Notes under the pieces: model-generated
Databases searched by the model: none
Told to the model about the DNA's origin: nothing
The model's input: the letters and a program-made list of their open reading frames with translations, nothing else
Made by a program: the position numbers and the translations under genes
Assembly: GCA_020073445.1 (NCBI GenBank)
Contig: JAIQFE010000028.1
Location: forward strand, 1-64,000
Source of the DNA: Terriglobia bacterium
GTDB taxonomy: Bacteria > Acidobacteriota > Terriglobia > Bryobacterales > Bryobacteraceae
Length of the DNA stretch: 64,000 bases
Direction of reading: 5' to 3'
Shown here: positions 3,659-37,821 of the stretch, piece by piece
Position numbering within the stretch: position 1 is the first letter of the stretch
How the letters are laid out: every line of letters begins with the position of its first letter

Positions 3659-3694
3659 TTGACATTCTAACCTGCTAGTACTAATGTTTTAGTA
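3659..3694 (+). promoter_or_regulatory. blaI promoter with overlapping BlaI-type operator; transcript probably leaderless
   Basis: TTGACA (3659-3664) is followed by a 17-bp spacer and TAATGT (3682-3687), a near-consensus housekeeping promoter. The perfect inverted repeat TACTAA-TGTT-TTAGTA (3679-3694) covers the -10 box and ends on the A of the ATG at 3694. TACTA/TAGTA is the half-site type bound by BlaI/MecI repressors, so autorepression is likely. The expected transcription start, about 7 bp after the -10 box, coincides with the ATG, which suggests a leaderless message. Confidence 0.75.
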
Positions 3695-4062
3695 TGAAGC
3701 GGGCAAGAACGACCCTCACCGGGCAGGAACTCGAAATCATGAAGGTGATCTGGAAGCTCGGAACACCCACGGTGCGGCAGGTTTACGAAACCCTGCTGGA
3801 ACGCCGCAAAGTGGCCTACACCACCGTCATGACCATGATGAACATCCTGGAGCAGAAGGGCTATCTCAAGAAACGCCAAGGCGACCGGGCCTTTGTCTAC
3901 GCTCCTAGCCGACCCGAAAAGCAGGTCATTCGAGCCATGGTCCGCGAGTTCGTCGACCGCGTGTTCAATGGGGCGGCGGAACCGCTGCTGCTGCATCTCG
4001 TCGAGGATGACCAGCTCACCAAAGAAGAGCTGGACGAAATCCGGAAGAGCATACGGCCATGA
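3694..4062 (+). CDS. BlaI/MecI/CopY-family repressor
   Basis: This 122-residue protein has an N-terminal winged helix (residues 5-75, with LTGQELEIMKVIWKLG and the recognition region RKVAYTTVMTMMNILEQKGYL) and a C-terminal dimerisation helix. BlaI proteins repress as dimers and are released when a partner membrane protease cleaves or triggers them. The partner is the next gene, which overlaps by ATGA. Length matches the family. The regulated process is unknown: no beta-lactamase is nearby, and in acidobacteria such pairs are very common and not tied to resistance. Confidence 0.92.
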   Translation: MKRARTTLTGQELEIMKVIWKLGTPTVRQVYETLLERRKVAYTTVMTMMNILEQKGYLKKRQGDRAFVYAPSRPEKQVIRAMVREFVDRVFNGAAEPLLLHLVEDDQLTKEELDEIRKSIRP

Positions 4063-5945
4063 ACACCCTACTATTCGACAACTTGTTGTCCTGGTCCGCC
4101 GAGTTCGCGATTCTCGCGATGGCAGCCAGTGCGGCGGCGTATACGCTGCGTCACGCGCGGGCGCGGCTGTATTTCTGGCAGGCGATTCTGGCGGTCGCTT
4201 TGATGCTGCCCGCGATTGCCCCATGGAAACAATCCGTCGACGTCGCGTTGCCGCTTCCGCCGCCCGTAGTGCTGGCGACCCACGGCGTTCCGGTTTCGAA
4301 CGTTCCCGTATCGATGACCTGGGGATTCGAACAGCTGCTGGTGTTGCTGGCCGCCGGCGCCGTGCTTCGGCTGGCGTGGGTGGGCGTGGGACTGATACGC
4401 CTGTCTCGCATCCGGAAGCACGCCCGGCGTTTGCCGGAGCCGCCGGTCGGGTTCGGAGGAAGCGCAAGCTGGTACGTCTCGGATCAGGTGAGTGGTCCGG
4501 TTACTTTCGGCTGGCTGCGGCCGACGATTTTGCTCCCGACCAAGGTTTGCGAACTGACGCCCAGCGCGCAGGAAGCCATCGCCAGTCACGAGCTGTTCCA
4601 TGTTCATCGGCGCGACTGGCTGTTCGTCATGGCGGAAGAAATGATTCGCAGCGTGCTGTGGTTCCATCCTGCCGTCTGGTTCGTGCTATCGCGCATTCAA
4701 CTGGCGCGAGAGCAGGTGGTCGATCAGGAAGTGGTCCATGCCACGCGCGATCGCGCGGGATATTTAGAAGCCCTGGTATCGGTGGCCGCGCAACGACTTG
4801 AGCCGGATGTCGCACCGGCTCCACTTTTCTTGAAGAAACGCCAGCTCGCGGTGCGAGTGCAGGCGCTATTAAAGGAGACCTCGATGTCCGCATCCCGTCT
4901 TGCCGCTCATATTTCGGTCGCCGCATCCGTCGCGGTTATCGGCGCCTGCGGCGCGGTCTGGTTCTTCCCTCTGCAGAGTGCCGCGCAGGTTGCTCCGGAC
5001 GACGCAGGTATCACCGTGGATGCGGGCGGCACCTTGGCCCATCGCCCGCCCGTGCACTATCCGGGCGAGGCAGCTGCCGGCGATGTGCTGCTGGAACTGA
5101 CTCTGAACTCCAAGGGCGAGGTCGCCGATGCGCGCGTGCTGAGTGGTCCGGATGAATTGCGCAAGGCGGCTCTCGCGAGTGCACTGGACTGGCATTATGA
5201 CGGCGCCGCCTCGACACTGCTTCACGCAACCGTTCATTTCGGACAGAGGACGACGCGGAATGCACCGCAACCTCCTCCCCCTCCTCCTCCGCCTCCGCCA
5301 CCACCGCCGCCGGGTGCAGTTGGCGGGAGAGCCAAGGGCGGTCCATTTACTGCTCCGCCTCCGCCACCACCTCCGCCTCCACCACCGGAGACCGCCGTCA
5401 TTCAGCGGATCGATTTCGTGGGATTGAGTCCTGAATTGCAGCAGCGCGTGCAGAGCAGCCTCCCCGTACACGAAGGCGACACGCTAAGACTTGCCCAGTG
5501 GGATAGCGTTCGGCAATCTTTGCGGGACATCGACGAGCACCTGGTCATGGTTGTTCAGGGGAATGGAAATCCTTCGGACCGCGTGATTCTCAGGATCATG
5601 CTGCGGCAGGAGGTAGCGTTGGCTCCTGCGGTGACGGCATCGGTAGGATACCGTATCGGCGGAGGCGTCAGTGCGCCGGTCCCGACGGTCCGGCCGGAGC
5701 CTGAATACTCCGAAGAAGCTCGCGCCGCCAAATGGCAAGGTGCGGTTCTGTTGCAGGTACTGGTGGACGAAAACGGTGTCCCGCAGGACATTCAGGTCGT
5801 CCGGCCGTTGGGCCTCGGACTGGACCAAAAGGCCATCGAAGCGGTGCAGCAGTGGCGCTTCAAGCCGGGGCTCAAGGACGGGAAACCAGTAGCGGTCTCT
5901 GCCAATATCGAAGTCAATTTTAGGCTTGCACCATGGCGTCAGTAA
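4059..5945 (+). CDS. M56 (BlaR1/MecR1-type) membrane metalloprotease fused to TonB-like and POTRA-like modules
   Basis: The protein has 628 residues. The N-terminal third contains several membrane segments and the zinc motif HELFH (177-181), followed by the family helix ending REQVVDQEVV. A further membrane segment lies near residues 280-305. Then come a TonB_C-like module (about 320-395, HYPGEAAAGDVLLELTLNSKG), a proline run of about 14 (about 405-418), a second of about 11 (about 433-443), a POTRA-like segment (about 447-505, IDFVGLSPELQQRVQSSLPV) and a second, clearer TonB_C domain (about 530-625, PEYSEEARAAKWQGAVLL to QWRFKPGLKDGKPV). The protease would sense a signal and inactivate the upstream repressor. 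Proline-rich spacers suit a periplasm-spanning arm. A canonical penicillin-binding sensor domain is absent. Confidence 0.85.
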   Translation: MNTLLFDNLLSWSAEFAILAMAASAAAYTLRHARARLYFWQAILAVALMLPAIAPWKQSVDVALPLPPPVVLATHGVPVSNVPVSMTWGFEQLLVLLAAGAVLRLAWVGVGLIRLSRIRKHARRLPEPPVGFGGSASWYVSDQVSGPVTFGWLRPTILLPTKVCELTPSAQEAIASHELFHVHRRDWLFVMAEEMIRSVLWFHPAVWFVLSRIQLAREQVVDQEVVHATRDRAGYLEALVSVAAQRLEPDVAPAPLFLKKRQLAVRVQALLKETSMSASRLAAHISVAASVAVIGACGAVWFFPLQSAAQVAPDDAGITVDAGGTLAHRPPVHYPGEAAAGDVLLELTLNSKGEVADARVLSGPDELRKAALASALDWHYDGAASTLLHATVHFGQRTTRNAPQPPPPPPPPPPPPPPGAVGGRAKGGPFTAPPPPPPPPPPPETAVIQRIDFVGLSPELQQRVQSSLPVHEGDTLRLAQWDSVRQSLRDIDEHLVMVVQGNGNPSDRVILRIMLRQEVALAPAVTASVGYRIGGGVSAPVPTVRPEPEYSEEARAAKWQGAVLLQVLVDENGVPQDIQVVRPLGLGLDQKAIEAVQQWRFKPGLKDGKPVAVSANIEVNFRLAPWRQ

Positions 5946-5984: not shown

Positions 5985-6308
5985 ATGCCCAAAATCACCT
6001 ATATTTCAAATGCCGGCGTTTCCCGCACGGTTGACGTTCCGGTCGGCGACACCGTCATGGAAGGCGCCGTCCAGAACGACGTCGACGGGATCGTCGCCGA
6101 GTGCGGTGGCAACTGCCAGTGCGCTACCTGCCACGTCTACGTCGAAGAAAAGTTCCTGCCGGTGCTGAAGCCCATCGCCGAGGACGAAGACGCGATGCTT
6201 GAGACCGCGGCTTCGCCCCGTAAATCCAATAGCCGCCTGAGCTGCCAGCTCCACGTGACGCCGGCGTTCGACGGCTTGGTGGTCCACACGCCGCCCACCC
6301 AACAATAA
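5985..6308 (+). CDS. [2Fe-2S] ferredoxin, adrenodoxin/P450 type
   Basis: This 107-residue cytoplasmic electron carrier has the cysteine pattern of the adrenodoxin/putidaredoxin class, ECGGNCQCATC (C-x5-C-x2-C), with the fourth ligand in SCQLH. The final TTPPTQQ-like tail is disordered. It directly precedes its probable reductase with stop and start codons adjoining. Such pairs usually feed a cytochrome P450 or a Rieske-type oxygenase, but neither gene is in the window, so the end acceptor is unknown. Confidence 0.9.
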   Translation: MPKITYISNAGVSRTVDVPVGDTVMEGAVQNDVDGIVAECGGNCQCATCHVYVEEKFLPVLKPIAEDEDAMLETAASPRKSNSRLSCQLHVTPAFDGLVVHTPPTQQ

Positions 6309-7493
6309 GTGGCCGTTGTCATCATTGGCGGCGGGCAGGGCGGATTCCAAACCGCCGCGTCGCTGCGTGCCGAGGGTTACCAGGAACGCATCACGCTGAT
6401 TGGCGACGAGCCTGGAGTGCCTTATCAAAGGCCTCCGCTCTCGAAGGGCTTCCTGCTCGGCAAGCAGGAGCAGCGCCACGCCGAGCTGCGGCCGGCTGCG
6501 TTCTATGAGACGCAGCGCATAGATCTGTTGACGGGCCGCGTGACCGCTATCGATCGCGTGGCGCGTCGCGTCAAGCTCGATTCCGGGGAGCAGATCGAAT
6601 ACGACACTCTGGTGCTCGCCACCGGCGCGCGCAACCGTCCGCTTCCTCACGAGGGAGTATTTTATCTGCGTACGCTCCCGGAAGCCACGGAGATTCGCCA
6701 GCGTCTGGCTGCGGCTCAGGACGTGGTCGTGATCGGCGGAGGATTCATCGGGCTCGAAGTCGCCGCCGCGGCTCGCACTCTCGGCAAGCAGGTCACCGTG
6801 GTCGAAGGGCAACCGCGGTTAATGGCAAGGGTGGTAGCACCGGTCGTGTCCGAATATTTCCGCGGCCAGCACGAGGCCAAGGGTGTCGACATCCTGTTAA
6901 ACGCGGTGCTGTTAGGGATAAGCGAAAAAGAGGTGCTGCTAGAGGAAAGAACCCGCCGCCCTGCCGACCTGGTGATTGCCGGGATCGGCGTGGTACCGAA
7001 CGTGGAGCTGGCGCGCGAGGCCGGTTTGCCCGTCGGCAATGGCATCACTGTAGACGAGTACCTGCGAACTCCCGACGAGCGTATTTTCGCGATCGGGGAT
7101 TGCGCGGAGAGCCCCAGCATGTTCGCGGAAGATTTGTGCCGTCTGGAATCGGTGCAGAATGCGGTCGATCAGGCGGCTTGCGTCGCCAAGGCCAACGTCG
7201 GACACCGAGCGCCGTATGGGGCCGTGCCGTGGTTCTGGACTGATCAGTACGATATCCACCTGCAGATGGCGGGCTTGCCGACGGGGTTCGATCAGGTGGT
7301 CACGCGCGGCGATCCGGAGAGTCGCAAATTTTCGGTGTTTTACTTCCGGGGTGGGAAACTCTGCGCGGTGGATTCGGTGAATCGTCCCGCGGATCACTTA
7401 GCGGCAAGAAAGCTGATCGGGGCACACGCGACCGTGAGCCCCGACCAAGCCAAGGACGAAAGTTTCGACCTGAAGGTATCGCGGGCTGAATGA
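6309..7493 (+). CDS. FAD-dependent NAD(P)H:ferredoxin reductase
   Basis: The 394-residue protein belongs to the putidaredoxin-reductase/BphA4 family. It has an N-terminal FAD site (VVIIGGGQGG), an NAD(P)-binding site near residue 140 (VVIGGGFIGLEVAAAARTLG), the second FAD signature FAIGDCAE, and a C-terminal reductase domain. The start is a GTG placed immediately after the ferredoxin TAA, which implies translational coupling. It would move electrons from NAD(P)H to the upstream ferredoxin. A hairpin repeat follows the stop codon. Confidence 0.9.
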   Translation: MAVVIIGGGQGGFQTAASLRAEGYQERITLIGDEPGVPYQRPPLSKGFLLGKQEQRHAELRPAAFYETQRIDLLTGRVTAIDRVARRVKLDSGEQIEYDTLVLATGARNRPLPHEGVFYLRTLPEATEIRQRLAAAQDVVVIGGGFIGLEVAAAARTLGKQVTVVEGQPRLMARVVAPVVSEYFRGQHEAKGVDILLNAVLLGISEKEVLLEERTRRPADLVIAGIGVVPNVELAREAGLPVGNGITVDEYLRTPDERIFAIGDCAESPSMFAEDLCRLESVQNAVDQAACVAKANVGHRAPYGAVPWFWTDQYDIHLQMAGLPTGFDQVVTRGDPESRKFSVFYFRGGKLCAVDSVNRPADHLAARKLIGAHATVSPDQAKDESFDLKVSRAE

Positions 7494-20724: not shown

Positions 20725-23472
20725 ATGACACCGTCTCGACTCTTTCGCGTCTGGCGTCACCGGGTTCGGTCAGTCTCCGATCGAGACCGGCTCGACGCTC
20801 AACTCGGCCAGGAGATCTTATTCCACTTCGAGCAACTGGTCCACGAGAAGATCGCCGAAGGGTTGGCCCTCAAAGATGCGCAGCGCGAGGCGCGGCTGGC
20901 ACTGGGCAATATACCCCTGTTGGAAGATCAGTGCCGCGACCAGCGACGCATCGGCTGGCTGCACGACCTGTGGCAGGACGTGAAGTATGGCGTTCGGACG
21001 CTGCGCCAGAATCCCGGCTTTGCGTTGATCGCAGTATGCTCTCTGGCTTTGGGGATCGGCGCCAATTCCGCTATCCTTGGGGCGCTCCGGACCACGCTGC
21101 TCGCGAAGATTCCCTTTCCCGACGGCGACCGCCTGGTTCTGCTGCGCACCTATCCGGAGTGGAATCCGGCACTGAGCAACGCCGCCTCGATTCCCGATTA
21201 CGTTGCCTGGAAACTCCAAAGCCGCAGCTTTGAATCCATGGGAGCCTCGATAGCCGATCATTCCAGGGACTTCGGCGCGGAGGAGGATGGACGTCCCGCG
21301 GAACGAATCGAAGGGCACGGAGTCGCCCCATCGCTCTTTGCGACCCTCGGTGTTCAGCCGCTTCTGGGCCGCACGTTCACCGAGGAGGAAGCGGAGATCG
21401 ATCACCCCGCGCCAGTCATGGTCCTCAGCCATAGCCTGTGGCAACGCCGATTCGGGGGCGACCCCGGGGTGCTCGGGAAACAAGTCCGTTTGAGCGGCAG
21501 CAACCTGACGATCGTCGGCGTGATGCCCCCGGACTTCCACTATCCGCTGGAGGAAACCGAATACTGGATCCCGCTCGGCATCAATCGCTTCCAGTTGCAG
21601 GGATCGGCACGATACTTCGAAGTGCTGGCGCGCTTGAAGCCCGGCGTGAGCGTGGAACAGGCGCAGGCCGAGATGGACGGCATCGGCGCGCAACTTGCGC
21701 GCGATTTTCCCGATCGCCACAAAGGCTGGCGGATTCGCGTCCAAACGCTGCGTGACGTTTGGTACGGCTGGAGGAAAACTCCTCTGGCGACGCTCGAAGG
21801 AGCGGTGGCGCTGGTTCTCCTGATCGCGTGCGCGAATATTGCGGGTCTGTTGCTGGCTCGCGGCACCGCGCGCCGCCCGGAAATCGTGATGCGCATGGCG
21901 CTCGGCGCCGGACGCGGCCGCGTTGTGCGACAGATGTTGACCGAGAGCGTCCTGTTGTCCCTGATCGGCGGAGCGCTGGGAACCTTCGTCGCCTGGGGAG
22001 CCCTCAGGGCGCCGCTCCAGATGCATCCGCCGCTGGCCGGCCAGCGAATCACAGACGTCGTGGTGGATCTTCCACTGCTTGCCTTGCTGGGATTGCTTTC
22101 GGTTGTGACCGGCCTGATCTTTGGCCTTGGTCCGGCGATCGCCTGCTTTCAATTGGATCTCGCCGGCCCCCTTAAGGAATCGACCAGAAGCGCCGGATCG
22201 CCTTATAGGCGCAACCGGCTGCAGTCGGCCCTGGTCGCGCTGCAGATCGCATCGGCGTTGGTGCTGTTAATCGGCTCCGGGCTTCTGATCAACAGCTTCG
22301 TGCGCCTGGCCGGATTCGACCTCAATTTCGACCCGACCGGCCTGCTTACGTTCGAATACCGGATTCCCCAGCAGCGGTATGTGCACAATGTGGGCGTCTT
22401 TCAAGGTGCGCCTTACTCCGCCATCGACCCATCGCCAACACCTGCTATCCAGCGCGTCTATGAGCATCTCCGAGCGATGCGGGGCCCGGAGTCCGTCGCC
22501 GGCATCTCTCTGCCTCCTGTGAACAGCCTGGTGCTCAATAGCCTCGGCTTCAGCATCGAGGAGCGGCCTATGCCTCAAAGCGCCGAGGATCGAAACGCTT
22601 ACCGGGCCGTCTATTTTCTGATCACTCCCAATTTCTTCACTACGATGAAGACCCGCTTGTTACGGGGCAGGGACCTGAACGACTTCGACACGGCGGCTGG
22701 TTCCTGGGTCGCGATCATCAACGAGACCATGGCGCGACTGTTCTGGCCCGGCGAAGATCCGATTGGAAAGCGTTTGATGCTGGAAGTCGTTGCGGGTGAG
22801 CGGCCTCGCGAAATCGTCGGTGTCGTGGCTGATATTCCAACGCGGCGCGACCGGGCTGAGCCGCAGCCGGTGATATACACTTCTTATCTGCAGCAGTCCC
22901 CGGCGTATCGCGGACCAATTGCGAACATGTTCGGCCAGATGACCTTTCTGCTCCGCACCTCGGGCGATCCAATGAGCCTGGTGCCGGAAGCACGCAGCGC
23001 GGTAGCGGAGGTCGATCCCGATCACGCGATCACCAGAATCCAGACCATGGAACAGTATTGGGGCGGCGGGATGCGTGACAAACGTATTCTGGCCGCGGTG
23101 CTCGGTGTTTTCGCGTTTGAGGCCACACTGCTCGCAGCCATCGGGATTTACGGCGTGATGGCGTATTCGGTCGCGCAGCGCACTCGGGAAATCGGCATTC
23201 GCATGGCTCTGGGCGCGAGCTCGCACAAGATTCTAGCCTTGATAGGCGGGCGGGCGGCCATTCTGATCTCGCTCGGCGTGCTGCTCGGTTTGGCGGGTTC
23301 CCTGATGCTTTCCCGGCTGATCGCCTCGCAGCTGTGGGGAATCCAACCGACCGATCCGGCGACGTTTACCGGAGTATCGCTGTTGCTGATCGCCGTAGCC
23401 CTGCTGGCGTGTTTCGTCCCCGCGCGGCGGGCGATTCGCGTGGATCCGACAGAAGCATTAAGATCCGAGTAG
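20725..23472 (+). CDS. ADOP-type (acidobacterial duplicated orphan permease) FtsX/MacB-like protein
   Basis: The 915-residue membrane protein contains an N-terminal cytoplasmic helical segment (about residues 1-85), then two MacB_PCD-FtsX units. Membrane helices occur near NPGFALIAVCSLALGIGANSA, ALVLLIACANIAGLLLARGTARRPE and again at the C-terminus with VAQRTREIGIRMALGAS. These proteins lack a dedicated ATPase gene and are expanded in acidobacteria beside PadR regulators, as here. A role in export or in mechanical coupling across the periplasm is proposed but untested. Its 3' end overlaps convergent thiE by 15 bp. Confidence 0.92.
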   Translation: MTPSRLFRVWRHRVRSVSDRDRLDAQLGQEILFHFEQLVHEKIAEGLALKDAQREARLALGNIPLLEDQCRDQRRIGWLHDLWQDVKYGVRTLRQNPGFALIAVCSLALGIGANSAILGALRTTLLAKIPFPDGDRLVLLRTYPEWNPALSNAASIPDYVAWKLQSRSFESMGASIADHSRDFGAEEDGRPAERIEGHGVAPSLFATLGVQPLLGRTFTEEEAEIDHPAPVMVLSHSLWQRRFGGDPGVLGKQVRLSGSNLTIVGVMPPDFHYPLEETEYWIPLGINRFQLQGSARYFEVLARLKPGVSVEQAQAEMDGIGAQLARDFPDRHKGWRIRVQTLRDVWYGWRKTPLATLEGAVALVLLIACANIAGLLLARGTARRPEIVMRMALGAGRGRVVRQMLTESVLLSLIGGALGTFVAWGALRAPLQMHPPLAGQRITDVVVDLPLLALLGLLSVVTGLIFGLGPAIACFQLDLAGPLKESTRSAGSPYRRNRLQSALVALQIASALVLLIGSGLLINSFVRLAGFDLNFDPTGLLTFEYRIPQQRYVHNVGVFQGAPYSAIDPSPTPAIQRVYEHLRAMRGPESVAGISLPPVNSLVLNSLGFSIEERPMPQSAEDRNAYRAVYFLITPNFFTTMKTRLLRGRDLNDFDTAAGSWVAIINETMARLFWPGEDPIGKRLMLEVVAGERPREIVGVVADIPTRRDRAEPQPVIYTSYLQQSPAYRGPIANMFGQMTFLLRTSGDPMSLVPEARSAVAEVDPDHAITRIQTMEQYWGGGMRDKRILAAVLGVFAFEATLLAAIGIYGVMAYSVAQRTREIGIRMALGASSHKILALIGGRAAILISLGVLLGLAGSLMLSRLIASQLWGIQPTDPATFTGVSLLLIAVALLACFVPARRAIRVDPTEALRSE

Positions 23473-26823: not shown

Positions 26824-28104
26824 CTATCTTCGCTTGCCGCCGGTGTTCTTCAGGGGAGTTCCCGCGCCGCTGAAAAATAGCGTCACATCCACAGTGTGGC
26901 TATCGTTGTCGATGTTGCTCTCCGCACGAGTCTTGCCCAGGTTGTCGAAGATGCCCTCTTCGCGCACGCGGTTCAGGAACGCCTCCGGATACCCGTCCTG
27001 GAACGGCTGCCCTGGCTCGATTTTCCACATCTTTCGAATGGCCGGCTCGCCAATCAGGTCCAGCCCTTGGATATTGAGCTTGCCGAGCGTGAACTGCGGC
27101 CCGCGCTCGATATTGACCGTCAGGTTGACCGTGTGGTCCTCGTCATGGATATCGCGTACAACTTTGGTATCGGCTTGCAGATATCCTTGTGTGCGCTGGC
27201 GCTGGCGGATCTTAGCAAGACTCGCCTCGATGCGCGCGAAATTGGCTGTGTCGCCCTTGTGCCAGTCGTCCAATTTTTCGAGTGCCGCGACTTCGGTGGT
27301 GGGCACGCCCGCCAGCGCGACGGTGCCCAATTTATAGACGGGGCCCTCATCGATGGCGATGGTCACCACCACTCCGTCATTGTTTTCGGCTTTCTTCGCA
27401 GTGATCTCGGGGAACGCTACCCGGATCCGGCCTTGCTCTTCATACATGGGCCGGACGGTGGAATCGAGCACCCTCCTCACCAGCGGCTCGCTGTAGGGAA
27501 TGCCAACGGCGTCCTTCGAAAGTTTCTGGAGTAGAAGGGCGGTCAGCATTTCGCGGTTGCCGGTGAACTTGACCTCGGCAATGTGGGCGCGCTCGCCGAC
27601 CGGGCGGAACACGATTTCGAGGCCTCCCGTATCGCTGTTCAGCTCGCCCATCACTTCTACTTTGCCTTCGAAGAACTGGTGGATCGCCGCGTTGTAGCGA
27701 TTCAAGACCTGAGGAGTCGCGGGAATCTTGTCGCCGAGCAGTAGTTCCTGTTTCTTGAGCGCTGCGCGTAGCGCGTCGGCGGAGGCGGGTAGCGCTTCAA
27801 AGCGGTACGGATACAGTGTCCCGACTTCGACCACTTCGAATGTGGTGTCGTATCCGGTGACGGTGGCGGCGGGCTTGAACGAATAGCCGACGCTCTCGAA
27901 TGCCCCGGATTCGAGCAGTCGCTCGCGCGCGGCGTCGAAATCTGTCTTGTCGACCAGTGCTCCCTGTTTCAGGCCGGAAGCCGCAACGATGCGTTCGGTC
28001 GGGATCTGCTTATTGCCCTGAATTTGCAGCGTCACCAGCGGATACTTTTGAGCCGGTTGAGCGCACAGGACCGTCCCGACAAGCAGTAGTAGACAGCCGC
28101 GCAT
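26824..28104 (-). CDS. Secreted POTRA-repeat protein without a beta-barrel
   Basis: The protein has about 426 residues with a signal peptide (MRGCLLLLVGTVLCA). It is made almost only of POTRA modules, recognisable from LVTLQIQGNKQIPTERI, AHIAEVKFTGNREMLTALLL, VYKLGTVALAGVPTTEVAAL and FTLGKLNIQGLDLIGEPAI. BamA and TamA carry such modules before a membrane barrel, but here the chain ends soon after the last module with a basic tail (NTGGKRR). It may be a periplasmic helper of outer-membrane insertion. ATG 28104 is favoured by GGGAACAGG upstream; in-frame ATG 28119 and GTG 28128 are alternatives. Confidence 0.8.
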   Translation of the reverse strand: MRGCLLLLVGTVLCAQPAQKYPLVTLQIQGNKQIPTERIVAASGLKQGALVDKTDFDAARERLLESGAFESVGYSFKPAATVTGYDTTFEVVEVGTLYPYRFEALPASADALRAALKKQELLLGDKIPATPQVLNRYNAAIHQFFEGKVEVMGELNSDTGGLEIVFRPVGERAHIAEVKFTGNREMLTALLLQKLSKDAVGIPYSEPLVRRVLDSTVRPMYEEQGRIRVAFPEITAKKAENNDGVVVTIAIDEGPVYKLGTVALAGVPTTEVAALEKLDDWHKGDTANFARIEASLAKIRQRQRTQGYLQADTKVVRDIHDEDHTVNLTVNIERGPQFTLGKLNIQGLDLIGEPAIRKMWKIEPGQPFQDGYPEAFLNRVREEGIFDNLGKTRAESNIDNDSHTVDVTLFFSGAGTPLKNTGGKRR

Positions 28105-34848: not shown

Positions 34849-37821
34849 TTAGAACGTCCTGCCGATGGTGAAGCGGAATTGCGACCGTCTCTCGAACAAC
34901 GGCGACGGCTGCCCGAACGTGAGAATCGAGTTCGCGAAGGACGCCGCGTTCGGGAAGTAGCTCCGGTCCGCGACAATCGGGGGCTGCAGATACTCGTAGA
35001 CGCGGGTCGGATTGTAGGCCCAGTAGATCCGGAAGGGCTGGTTAAACACCGGCATCAGCACCTGCAACTCCAGTCCGACGGAAGTCCGGATGATCTGGGT
35101 CCCCGGCGCGATCACCGCGGAATCGCCGAAGGCCGCTTCGGGGAATTGCCCGTTCAGGTCGCTGATGCGGCTGGGATTCAGTTTCAGCTGGCTCTTGTTC
35201 GAGATCCGGTTCATGCCCGCATCGAAGAACGGTACCAGCGAGACGGTTTGGCCGACAATCGGAATCCGGTACTCGAAATTCGCCACGATGTTGGTGTCGC
35301 CGCCGGGAAACACCAGTTGGTAGGTCGGGATGACCTGCGATGCATTCTGGAGACTGACCGTTCCCGTAGCGGGGTCGATGAACTTCTGCTGCCGCGGAGT
35401 GCCATCCGTATTCAGGAGGTTCACGGGTGCGGAATTCGGCACGTAGGCCCACGGCCCCGCGCCCCAGAGATCGAATCCTCGCACATCGTTTTCGCCGCCC
35501 ATGTAGAAACGATTGAAGGGAGGCGCGACCTTGCCGCCGTAGCCCGTCACATACTTCGCCGAGAGGTGCATCGCGATCACGTGGCCCGGCCTGAGACCCT
35601 TGCGGAAGTGCCGGAAATCGAGCACCGGCTCGATTTGATTTACGTTGCCGCCCAGAATGCTGCCCGCGAATTGGAACGACGCCTGAAAGCCAGTTCCGGC
35701 CGTGGGAGTGAGGGGGTTGTTGACGGAGTTGTAGCTATAGGTGGGCGTGATGCTCGATGTTCGGATTCCATCCAGCGAATTCTGCTGTGGTCCGTTGATG
35801 CTCAGGAAGTTGAGGTAGTCGTAATATTGCGACGCCGCGTCGGTCAGTGTCCGCACGTTCTGAATGCTGTACCCATAGCTGACGCCCAGGCGCTGGAAAC
35901 TGCGCTTCAGCGGGTAGTTGAGGAACGTGGTGAATCCCTTGGTATTCGAAACGTAGTTGAGCAGGTTCTGGGTGCCCAGCGAATTGTAAAGGGGAATCAG
36001 ATTGGCGCCGGCGAGCACCGAGGCCTCACGTGCCTGATCGAAGTTGAAGCGGCTGACGAAGACCGTGAATCCCACCTGCATGGGCCGGTCCAGGAAGTAC
36101 GGCTCGGTGAAGCCAAAGCTCACATCCGTGGTGCGCGTGCCGAGCTGGCTCGACAGGCTTAAGGTTTCGCCCAATCCCAGGAAGTTGTTGGTCGAATAGG
36201 AGAACCCCACGAAGCTTCCGGAGATTTCCGAGATGCCTCCGCTGAACTGGATGGTGTTCTTGCCGCGCTCGCGGACTTTGAGCGTCAGGTCGACCGTATG
36301 GTTGTTGTTATCCGTCTTCATGTCGACGGAAGAGTCTTCCTTCAGCGTCTCGAAATACCCCAGCTGGTTCAGGCGCAGGATGCTCAAGCGCCACAGGTCC
36401 GTGTTATACGGGTCGCCTTCGTCGATCAGCAACTCACGGCGGATCACTTTGTCGCGAGTGGTCGTGTTGCCGGAGAAATCGATCCGGCGCACGAAGAACT
36501 GGTTGCCTTCATCGAACCGCAGCGTCAGGTTGATTTTATCGGTGCCGGGGATCGGCTCAGGCTCGGGCTCCACCAGGAAGTTGATGTAACCGAATCGGCC
36601 ATACAGCTTGCGCAGCTCTTCAAAGCCCTTCTGCAGCCTTTCGGTGGAGAACGGGTCGCCTTGCTTCATCCGGAAGATCTGGGGAAACAGTTCTTCCGGC
36701 GTGCGGAACAGCTTCACGCCTACAAAGCTGATGGTATTGAGATGATACAGTCGGCCTTCTTCGATGCTGATCGAGATGTTGGCGTTCTTGCCAGGCCGAT
36801 TGGGTTTTATCAATGGCAGGCGGAACTTGCCGCCTCCAACATCCACGATATTGACCGACTGACCCGTGACGCGGGCTGTGAAATAGCCTTGCGATTGGTA
36901 GAACTGGACGATGCGCCCCTCGTCCTCATCCAGCTTCGTGGAGTCGTAGGTTCTGCTGAAGATATTTTCCGCGACCCTGGAGTACGGGATACCGAATGGG
37001 CGCAAGTTCCTCATGGCTCGCCGCACCAGGAGGTTGCTGAATACAGTGTTGCCTTCGAACTTGATGTCGCCGACCTTCACCTTCGGTCCCTCGTCCACTT
37101 TGAACACGATGTTCAACGACGATGGAGGAAATGGCTGCAGCTCCGGCGTCACGGTGGCAAACTGCCGGCCGCGCTCTGCCAGGTAGTCCTGCAAGACGAT
37201 CTGGGCGCGCTGCACCTTGTTCCGGTCATATGTCGATTCCGGGGATAAAGTGACGCGGCGCTCTTTGAACCGGTCCAGAACTTCGGACGTGGTGATCGAT
37301 TTCAGTCCGTCGTACTTGATCGTTCGCACCACCGGCCGCTCCTGGACTTTGAACGTCACGATCCAGCCGGTTTGGCCCGGCTCTCTCGTAACCTCGATAT
37401 TGTCGAAGCGGGCGCTGTTCCACAGCGTGATCAGGTCGCGGTGGATGGATTCGGCGTCGTAGGAATCGCCGCGCTTGGTGAAGATCATGGCGCGCAGCGT
37501 GTCTTGAGGCACCTTCCGCGCACCCTGGAAATTAATGGATTCGATGGTATCGGTGGGAGGGCGGTCGGGCGTCGTGCTGGGCGCAGCTGCGCCCGGCGCC
37601 GCGGGCTTGGCCGGTTCCGGCTGGGGTTTCGGCGGCGCGGGCTCCTGGGCTTGCGGAACCTGCTCGAACGGATTGGGAGGCTTAGGCGGCTGCGGCGCGG
37701 GCTGCTGCTGGCCAAGAAGGGGTATCGCTGTGAACAGGCCAAACAGCACGGCAGGCACCTTGAACGCTGCCGGCACCTTGAGAACGGGGGCGCGCAGGCC
37801 TCGAGGCCTGGGAAACTGCAT
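34849..37821 (-). CDS. bamA: Outer-membrane assembly factor BamA
   Basis: The 990-residue Omp85 protein inserts beta-barrels into the outer membrane. After a short N-terminus and a Pro-rich stretch (about 45-85), five POTRA modules are visible: from IESINFQGARKVPQDTLRAMI, TIKYDGLKSITTSEVL, VGDIKFEGNTVFSNLLVRRAM, LNTISFVGVKLF and VRRIDFSGNTTTRDKVIRREL. The barrel follows, with the conserved GGENDVRGFD motif near residue 780, and it ends RFTIGRTF with a C-terminal aromatic signal. The Pro-rich region before POTRA 1 is longer than in proteobacteria. An upstream ATG-less frame ends with TAG directly before the ATG at 37821. Confidence 0.95.
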   Translation of the reverse strand: MQFPRPRGLRAPVLKVPAAFKVPAVLFGLFTAIPLLGQQQPAPQPPKPPNPFEQVPQAQEPAPPKPQPEPAKPAAPGAAAPSTTPDRPPTDTIESINFQGARKVPQDTLRAMIFTKRGDSYDAESIHRDLITLWNSARFDNIEVTREPGQTGWIVTFKVQERPVVRTIKYDGLKSITTSEVLDRFKERRVTLSPESTYDRNKVQRAQIVLQDYLAERGRQFATVTPELQPFPPSSLNIVFKVDEGPKVKVGDIKFEGNTVFSNLLVRRAMRNLRPFGIPYSRVAENIFSRTYDSTKLDEDEGRIVQFYQSQGYFTARVTGQSVNIVDVGGGKFRLPLIKPNRPGKNANISISIEEGRLYHLNTISFVGVKLFRTPEELFPQIFRMKQGDPFSTERLQKGFEELRKLYGRFGYINFLVEPEPEPIPGTDKINLTLRFDEGNQFFVRRIDFSGNTTTRDKVIRRELLIDEGDPYNTDLWRLSILRLNQLGYFETLKEDSSVDMKTDNNNHTVDLTLKVRERGKNTIQFSGGISEISGSFVGFSYSTNNFLGLGETLSLSSQLGTRTTDVSFGFTEPYFLDRPMQVGFTVFVSRFNFDQAREASVLAGANLIPLYNSLGTQNLLNYVSNTKGFTTFLNYPLKRSFQRLGVSYGYSIQNVRTLTDAASQYYDYLNFLSINGPQQNSLDGIRTSSITPTYSYNSVNNPLTPTAGTGFQASFQFAGSILGGNVNQIEPVLDFRHFRKGLRPGHVIAMHLSAKYVTGYGGKVAPPFNRFYMGGENDVRGFDLWGAGPWAYVPNSAPVNLLNTDGTPRQQKFIDPATGTVSLQNASQVIPTYQLVFPGGDTNIVANFEYRIPIVGQTVSLVPFFDAGMNRISNKSQLKLNPSRISDLNGQFPEAAFGDSAVIAPGTQIIRTSVGLELQVLMPVFNQPFRIYWAYNPTRVYEYLQPPIVADRSYFPNAASFANSILTFGQPSPLFERRSQFRFTIGRTF

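Follow-up and report, generated by a model that had tools for sequence, protein, structure and literature searches.

A BlaI-paired M56 protease with a TonB_C-POTRA-TonB_C arm in a soil acidobacterium, and its possible outer-membrane input

What might a BlaR1-type sensor protease respond to when its penicillin-binding sensor has given way to modules otherwise seen in TonB and BamA? This question is raised by a locus in the 64,000-nucleotide stretch of Terriglobia bacterium DNA that we analyzed (assembly GCA_020073445.1, contig JAIQFE010000028.1, positions 1 to 64,000; hereafter the window), in which blaI directly precedes, and overlaps by four bases (ATGA), the gene for an M56 protease at 4059-5945. 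An earlier note had described in this protein an M56 protease followed by TonB_C, polyproline, POTRA-like and TonB_C modules, and profile searches, an AlphaFold model and Foldseek bear this description out. Overall, the modules are confirmed and the interpretation placed on them is partly supported. We propose that a BlaR1-like protease uses a TonB-type tip to sense a partner at the outer membrane and that it cuts BlaI; we consider this proposal, whose input we infer, plausible but somewhat short of an even chance. The features of the locus are as follows.

3659..3664, + strand: TTGACA, 14 bp upstream of the dyad, probably the -35 box for blaI
3679..3694, no strand assigned: perfect dyad TACTAATGTTTTAGTA, probable BlaI operator, from comparison across loci
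3694..4062, + strand: blaI, BlaI/MecI-type repressor, 122 amino acids (Pfam Penicillinase_R, 4.2e-33)
4059..5945, + strand: M56 sensor protease with a TonB_C-POTRA-TonB_C periplasmic arm, 628 amino acids (profiles and AlphaFold model)
4062..4964, + strand: BlaR1-like membrane and protease part (AlphaFold, match of residues 5-265 to BlaR1 8exs, hydropathy)
4587..4601, + strand: HELFH zinc-binding motif, residues 177-181 (alignment of 18 proteins)
4989..5240, + strand: first, degenerate TonB_C, residues 311-394 (26.1 bits; strands and helix in the model)
5271..5312, + strand: polyproline run 1, 14 prolines, residues 405-418 (sequence)
5355..5387, + strand: polyproline run 2, 11 prolines, residues 433-443 (sequence)
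5391..5603, + strand: POTRA domain, residues 445-515, profile closest to BamA POTRA1 (profile and model)
5664..5930, + strand: second, canonical TonB_C, residues 536-624 (profile, fold, identity to free TonB)

The protease part and its arm

The N-terminal part of the M56 protein resembles BlaR1. Pfam placed Peptidase_M56 at residues 139-270 (protein E 1.4e-21), and H177, E178 and H181 of the HExxH motif are invariant in all 18 aligned proteins. The AlphaFold model, built from an 18-protein alignment (mean pLDDT 76.6, pTM 0.53), contains helices at residues 2-27, 33-53, 90-121 and 278-302. Hydropathy and positive flanks, oriented by the positive-inside rule and the BlaR1 topology, fit four helices with a periplasmic C-terminal part as in BlaR1; the first helix (2-27) falls under the hydropathy threshold and rests on the AlphaFold model. 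The predicted topology thus supports a placement of the arm modules in the periplasm and of the protease inside. With Foldseek, the model matched BlaR1 first, TonB C-terminal domains next and Omp85/BamA POTRAs third. We rescored the Foldseek list with a second structural aligner; as these lists are ranked, a family missing from them proves nothing. BlaR1 (8exs) aligned over residues 5-265 (Z 18.7, rmsd 5.0, 243 aligned), and in this rescored list BlaR1 structures aligned to these residues only. No transpeptidase or penicillin-binding domain was found at E up to 1 in Pfam and NCBIfam scans of the M56 protein.

Beyond the protease, the model contains a TonB_C-like unit (311-394), a beta-alpha-alpha-beta-beta unit (445-515) and a TonB_C (541-621). 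Pfam recognized two TonB_C stretches in the whole protein, the best at 546-623 (3.7e-28); as separate fragments, residues 520-628 scored 80.8 bits and residues 317-401 scored 26.1 bits against a cut-off of 24.6. This first TonB_C is degenerate and shorter than the full domain, and a fuller TonB_C sequence is kept in the relative L020. The best structural match to TonB (6i97_D: Z 11.5, rmsd 2.1, 89 aligned) is to TonB bound to the receptor FoxA.

The POTRA assignment comes from a family profile and from the fold, as the single sequence (residues 442-522) scored 12.8 bits, below the Pfam cut-off of 21.3. Taken singly, 6 of the 13 members of the POTRA-region profile matched Pfam POTRA at E up to 10 (best 2.7e-4), and the profile itself matched BamA POTRA1 in the PDB (6j09, 2.1e-8; E. 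coli 2v9h, 4.4e-5). It also matched the POTRAs of two other genes of the window (hhalign probability 89.8). These two genes lie on the - strand at 26878-28026 and 36265-37548 (open frames of 444 and 990 amino acids), and the larger may be BamA-like. In structural comparison, BamA POTRA (2qcz) aligned with Z 8.8, rmsd 2.2 and 67 aligned residues. The POTRA modelled alone reached a pLDDT of 86.5, and its 50 listed Foldseek matches carry titles of Omp85, BamA, FhaC or Toc75 chains (best E 2.3e-3), apart from one titled only 'Structure of a membrane complex'. Profile matches and periplasmic topology are therefore both on the side of the earlier description of the arm. The domain shares with the POTRAs of BamA/Omp85 the beta-alpha-alpha-beta-beta fold, with BamA POTRA1 nearest in profile, but it occurs here as a single copy without a barrel and has invariant residues of its own (L29, D35, D53 and H55 in the numbering of alignment A2). 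A Pfam scan found no barrel family in the M56 protein and the model contains none, so that the C-terminal barrel that marks Omp85/BamA is absent. The two proline runs are coded by mixed codons and are thus not a simple DNA repeat.

The C-terminal tip is of the TonB type. The genome also encodes two free TonB proteins, to which residues 530-624 are 88% and 83% identical; each of the two has one strongly hydrophobic stretch and, by eye, a glycine/proline-rich spacer. In a tree of 134 TonB_C domains, the tip of the window protein and those of its two closest orthologs group with free TonBs of its own genome and genus at a starred fork, and 8 label changes are needed to separate 17 free TonBs from 100 M56-borne rows, at least 4 of them forced by starred branches. 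In L008/L106, a TonB-like tip is placed before an older-type tip, an order that suggests insertion of a TonB end. This exchange of tips with free TonBs is our main argument that the arm reads a TonB partner, and it fits, indirectly, a tip that would read the same partner as TonB itself.

Conservation of the locus and of the blaI dyad

A scan of named-genome contigs, from which the best 80 matches were kept, gave 79 distinct loci, several of them cut by contig ends. blaI is present in 78 of these loci and all three arm modules in 60, among them L156, in which M56 is split over two frames. The second TonB_C stands alone in 11 loci, the first TonB_C is present without POTRA in 3, POTRA and TonB_C occur without the first TonB_C in 1, and 4 have no arm module. 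Two or three M56 open reading frames or pieces were found in 7 of the 79 loci, and tandem M56-TonB genes, two or three per blaI, were observed in L113, L154, L163, L131, L115 and L114. The record titles name acidobacteria (Bryobacterales, Terriglobia, Solibacter and others) in every case but one, Bordetella parapertussis; this locus (L112, CALQCC020000019.1) is acidobacterial by content and probably belongs to a mislabelled metagenome bin. In a plasmid search by protein, 22 records matched partially and none covered 80% of the query. The downstream genes for a ferredoxin and a ferredoxin reductase (5985-7493) were rejected as a part of the system, being common to just 4 of 16 neighbourhoods.

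The dyad TACTAATGTTTTAGTA follows the pattern TACTAA-N4-TTAGTA, and its final A doubles as the first base of the blaI start codon. An exact copy is at the same place in 15 of 17 other close relatives with the blaI start in hand; the exceptions are L016, with one mismatch, and L012, with two mismatches and an exact dyad farther upstream. Across the 79 loci, an exact dyad lies at blaI in 64 and a dyad with at most one mismatch in 72, while L126 and L175 have no dyad at blaI and L115 and L127 are truncated where their contigs end. Among the 64 exact-dyad loci, ATG and dyad share one base in 60, and TTGAC lies 14 bp upstream of the dyad in 55. A 17-bp spacer would put the -10 hexamer inside the dyad and the start of transcription at about the ATG, so that the blaI-M56 message is probably leaderless. 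A chance or low-complexity artefact is ruled out by the conservation of the modules, their order, blaI and the dyad, together with the mixed proline codons.

We observed the same association at the level of genomes. An exact dyad is present in 19 of 61 genomes, the window's included, and the reversed-pattern control in none (0 of 61). These 19 are the genomes whose best M56-covering match reaches 170 bits (a cut chosen after the list was seen), and the best match without a dyad scored 123 bits. One of these genomes, G017, has its exact dyad at an ADOP gene and a one-mismatch copy at blaI. Allowing up to 1 mismatch gave 50 sites in the 19 genomes, the exact ones among them, and 52 with the reversed pattern, and we therefore used exact sites only. 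In a sample of the order, the dyad plus TG was present in 46 of 160 genomes and its reversed control in none; in a sample of the phylum it was present in 7 of 297, of which 2 belong to the genus of the window and 5 lie outside the order. All 5 sites outside the order belong to blaI-M56 pairs; blaI begins at the dyad in four of them and 3 bp after it in L272. Their M56 proteins carry a TonB_C in 4 cases, the fifth being incomplete in the stretch retrieved, and a POTRA was found in none of these 5 loci.

The pairing of M56 with BlaI is a known kind. Like BlaR1-BlaI and MecR1-MecI of staphylococci, the present system has four helices, a cytoplasmic M56 HExxH motif, an adjacent BlaI-type repressor and a dyad in the blaI promoter; unlike them, it has no recognizable penicillin-binding domain, and it has a TonB_C-POTRA-TonB_C arm, a probably leaderless promoter and a dyad over the start codon. 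Proteins that join M56 to TonB_C are catalogued in domain databases. We found no description of an M56-TonB_C/POTRA fusion in searches of an open-licence library, as judged by the listed titles and starts of abstracts, a scope that leaves most subscription journals outside. In a study of hemin availability in Porphyromonas gingivalis, the tables of changed genes include a BlaI/MecI/CopY regulator, next to which lies an M56 gene (PMC10470040).

Dyad sites away from blaI and sister channels

We inspected 31 dyad sites in relatives, in sets of 11 and 20 that take in only part of the single sites in other genomes of the order sample; 15 are at blaI and 16 elsewhere. Half of these 16 lie at ADOP permease genes (L072, L077, L078, L081, L218, L221, L224 and L228; the copies in L078 and L221 are broken or masked and that in L077 runs off its contig), and in 8 of 8 the start codon and the dyad share one base, the arrangement also seen for blaI. 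Four more are at TIGR03435 genes, with starts at -1, -1, 0 and +13 from the dyad end (L216, L225, L073 and L076), and among the remaining non-blaI sites are one at a TPR gene and one at a CarboxypepD_reg gene. Six operator-bearing ADOPs share 49-71% identity with one another and no more than 36% with the other ADOPs in the comparison. In L129 and L135, an ADOP gene lies directly downstream of the M56 gene or of the companion gene described below. These placements suggest that ADOP and TIGR03435 genes in relatives may be under the control of this BlaI, and our searches of the open-licence library returned no report that BlaI regulates either family.

The window itself contains an ADOP-type MacB_PCD/FtsX permease gene (20974-23469, + strand), one of about 31 in the genome. 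We rejected it as a target, as the genome has no non-blaI dyad at up to 1 mismatch, and the ADOPs of this genome are at most 36% identical to L228.

The genome of the window (G000) holds six blaI-M56 pairs, namely that at 3694-5945 of the window and L263, L264, L265, L266 and L267. Their six C-terminal heads are TonB_C-POTRA-TonB_C (the window), TonB_C, TIGR03435/DUF3738 (twice), GWxTD and one that is unrecognised. Close to the start of blaI, a dyad is clear in five of the six pairs but differs between them, and from these differing sequences the channels look insulated from each other. M56 proteins with TonB_C, DUF3738/TIGR03435 or GWxTD heads share with the window protein the combination of M56 and a C-terminal head, and such paralogs occur in the same genome; what sets the window protein apart from them is the POTRA, the two-TonB_C arm, and the dyad with candidate targets in trans found here. 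On contig 24 of the same genome, a free TonB gene lies between a gene that is ECF-sigma-like by eye and a TIGR03435 gene (L092/L262), which is another link between TonB and TIGR03435.

What the arm may read

In the mechanism that we propose, dimers of BlaI would bind TACTAA-N4-TTAGTA over the -10 region and the start codon and so repress blaI-M56; the position and conservation of the operator are observed, and we infer repression, cleavage, input and the sign of the response. The M56 protein, present in low amounts, would sit in the inner membrane with the protease inside and the TonB_C-Pro-POTRA-Pro-TonB_C arm outside, as homology and the model suggest. By a rough estimate, the arm, with its runs of 14 and 11 prolines and three folded units, would be long enough to extend to the outer membrane. 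Its TonB-type tip would dock on a TonB partner, most likely ligand-loaded TonB-dependent receptors, while the proline runs and the POTRA would supply reach and a second contact. Docking, or loss of docking, would alter the transmembrane part and turn on the zinc protease, and BlaI would be cut as it is by BlaR1, to judge from the family. Derepression would then raise the amount of the switch and, in dyad-bearing relatives, perhaps also of an ADOP permease, TIGR03435 proteins or both.

In its fullest form, this proposal describes a TonB mimic: the tip that the cell's TonB also carries would read loaded outer-membrane receptors and pass the signal to repressor proteolysis, a form of cell-surface signalling free of sigma factors, with ADOP permeases and TIGR03435 proteins among its outputs in Bryobacterales, and as one of several insulated channels per cell with different heads and operators. 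We offer this fuller version tentatively, as a possibility on the doubtful side. In cell-surface signalling as set out in one account, the occupancy of an outer-membrane receptor leads through regulated proteolysis to transcription (PMC7593790). The likeness of our system to the arrangement of TonB-dependent receptor, anti-sigma factor and ECF sigma factor lies in the proposed logic only; a repressor and a protease are proposed here, with no sigma or anti-sigma factor.

Several observations weigh against the mechanism that we propose. The 79-locus counts are not fully independent, as some of the loci are the same contigs as those of the model-building sequences. The TonB_C tree was built on 95 usable columns, and many of its forks are weak. 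In the phylum sample the reversed control gave 3 matches, so that the number of sites there is near background and only their placement argues for function. In the genome of the window, a search at up to 1 mismatch gives a single dyad, that of blaI, and the output there may be the switch itself only. Among the sites inspected in relatives, one has no clear gene (L080), and another (L074), an exact dyad, lies 218 bp ahead of a possible receptor target, a gene whose product is an outer-membrane barrel protein that includes a CarboxypepD_reg domain. An ADOP ortholog was found in only 9 of the 160 order genomes, 5 with the dyad and 4 without it; the four dyad-less orthologs are 47-59% identical to L224, and this ortholog group is thus not exclusively operator-bearing. 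Three of the genomes that hold these four gave TonB_C matches only and none to M56 at 1e-25, and the fourth has a short M56-TonB form. The earlier suggestion of a link to a BlaI regulon accordingly stands in part: the blaI partner and its conserved promoter dyad are there, but by motif the regulon in the genome of the window would be its own operon only, with wider sites in relatives.

A second possibility, also doubtful as we see it, is that the switch is the same and the arm is a general periplasmic protein-binding head, which would sense, for example, a neighbouring companion protein or the cell wall instead of receptors. Such a companion exists: in at least 9 of the 79 loci (L120, L124, L129, L147, L149, L157, L159, L161 and L162), and also in G154 (L268), the gene directly after that of the M56 protein encodes a TonB_C-POTRA-TonB_C protein that lacks M56 and whose start looks, by eye, like a signal peptide; this protein could be a soluble partner or a decoy. 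In the TonB_C tree, 17 other rows without M56, from genes beside M56 genes, also intermix with the M56 proteins (13 changes, at least 8 of them forced), and the unrelated TIGR03435 and GWxTD heads on M56 proteins of the same genome indicate that heads are interchangeable. Against this explanation, the 88% and 83% identity of the tip to free TonBs would be odd if the partner differed.

An envelope-assembly stress sensor, in which the POTRA would recognise unfolded outer-membrane protein strands or BAM and the TonB_C modules would be spacers or secondary contacts, seems to us unlikely. It would account for the POTRA profile being closest to BamA POTRA1, and the ADOPs, one of the candidate target classes in relatives, are FtsX/MacB-like permeases. 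However, the switch and dyad are kept in the 11 loci in which the second TonB_C stands alone, no POTRA was found at the dyad-bearing loci outside the order, and the POTRA is variable, with 25-46% identity in all but one of 12 orthologs.

We give very little credence to the idea of a TonB-like energy transducer merely fused to an M56 domain. The canonical TonB_C and the proline-rich linkers would suit it, and the M56 protein is like TonB in its TonB_C fold, its proline-rich spacer and a tip 83-88% identical to two free TonBs. The anchor of TonB, though, is a single helix coupled to ExbB/ExbD, and the single N-terminal membrane helix of TonB is replaced here by a four-helix protease of BlaR1 topology with an intact HExxH motif and a conserved blaI and dyad; separate TonB_C proteins without M56 are also present in the genome. 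With an anchor of this type, the part of the earlier note that had the protein energise a receptor or an assembly step is unsupported. An ordinary beta-lactam sensor of the BlaR1/MecR1 kind, in keeping with M56, BlaI and the BlaR1 fold, is scarcely credible given that no penicillin-binding domain is found and that BlaR1 structures match the protease part only.

The system suggests that the protease of BlaR1 serves as a plug-in switch, the sensor of which can be exchanged for outer-membrane-facing parts. It would also offer a way into the regulation of two large acidobacterial families that are still unexplained, the ADOP permeases and the TIGR03435 proteins, in the form of an operator, a repressor and a candidate signal, all of them testable.

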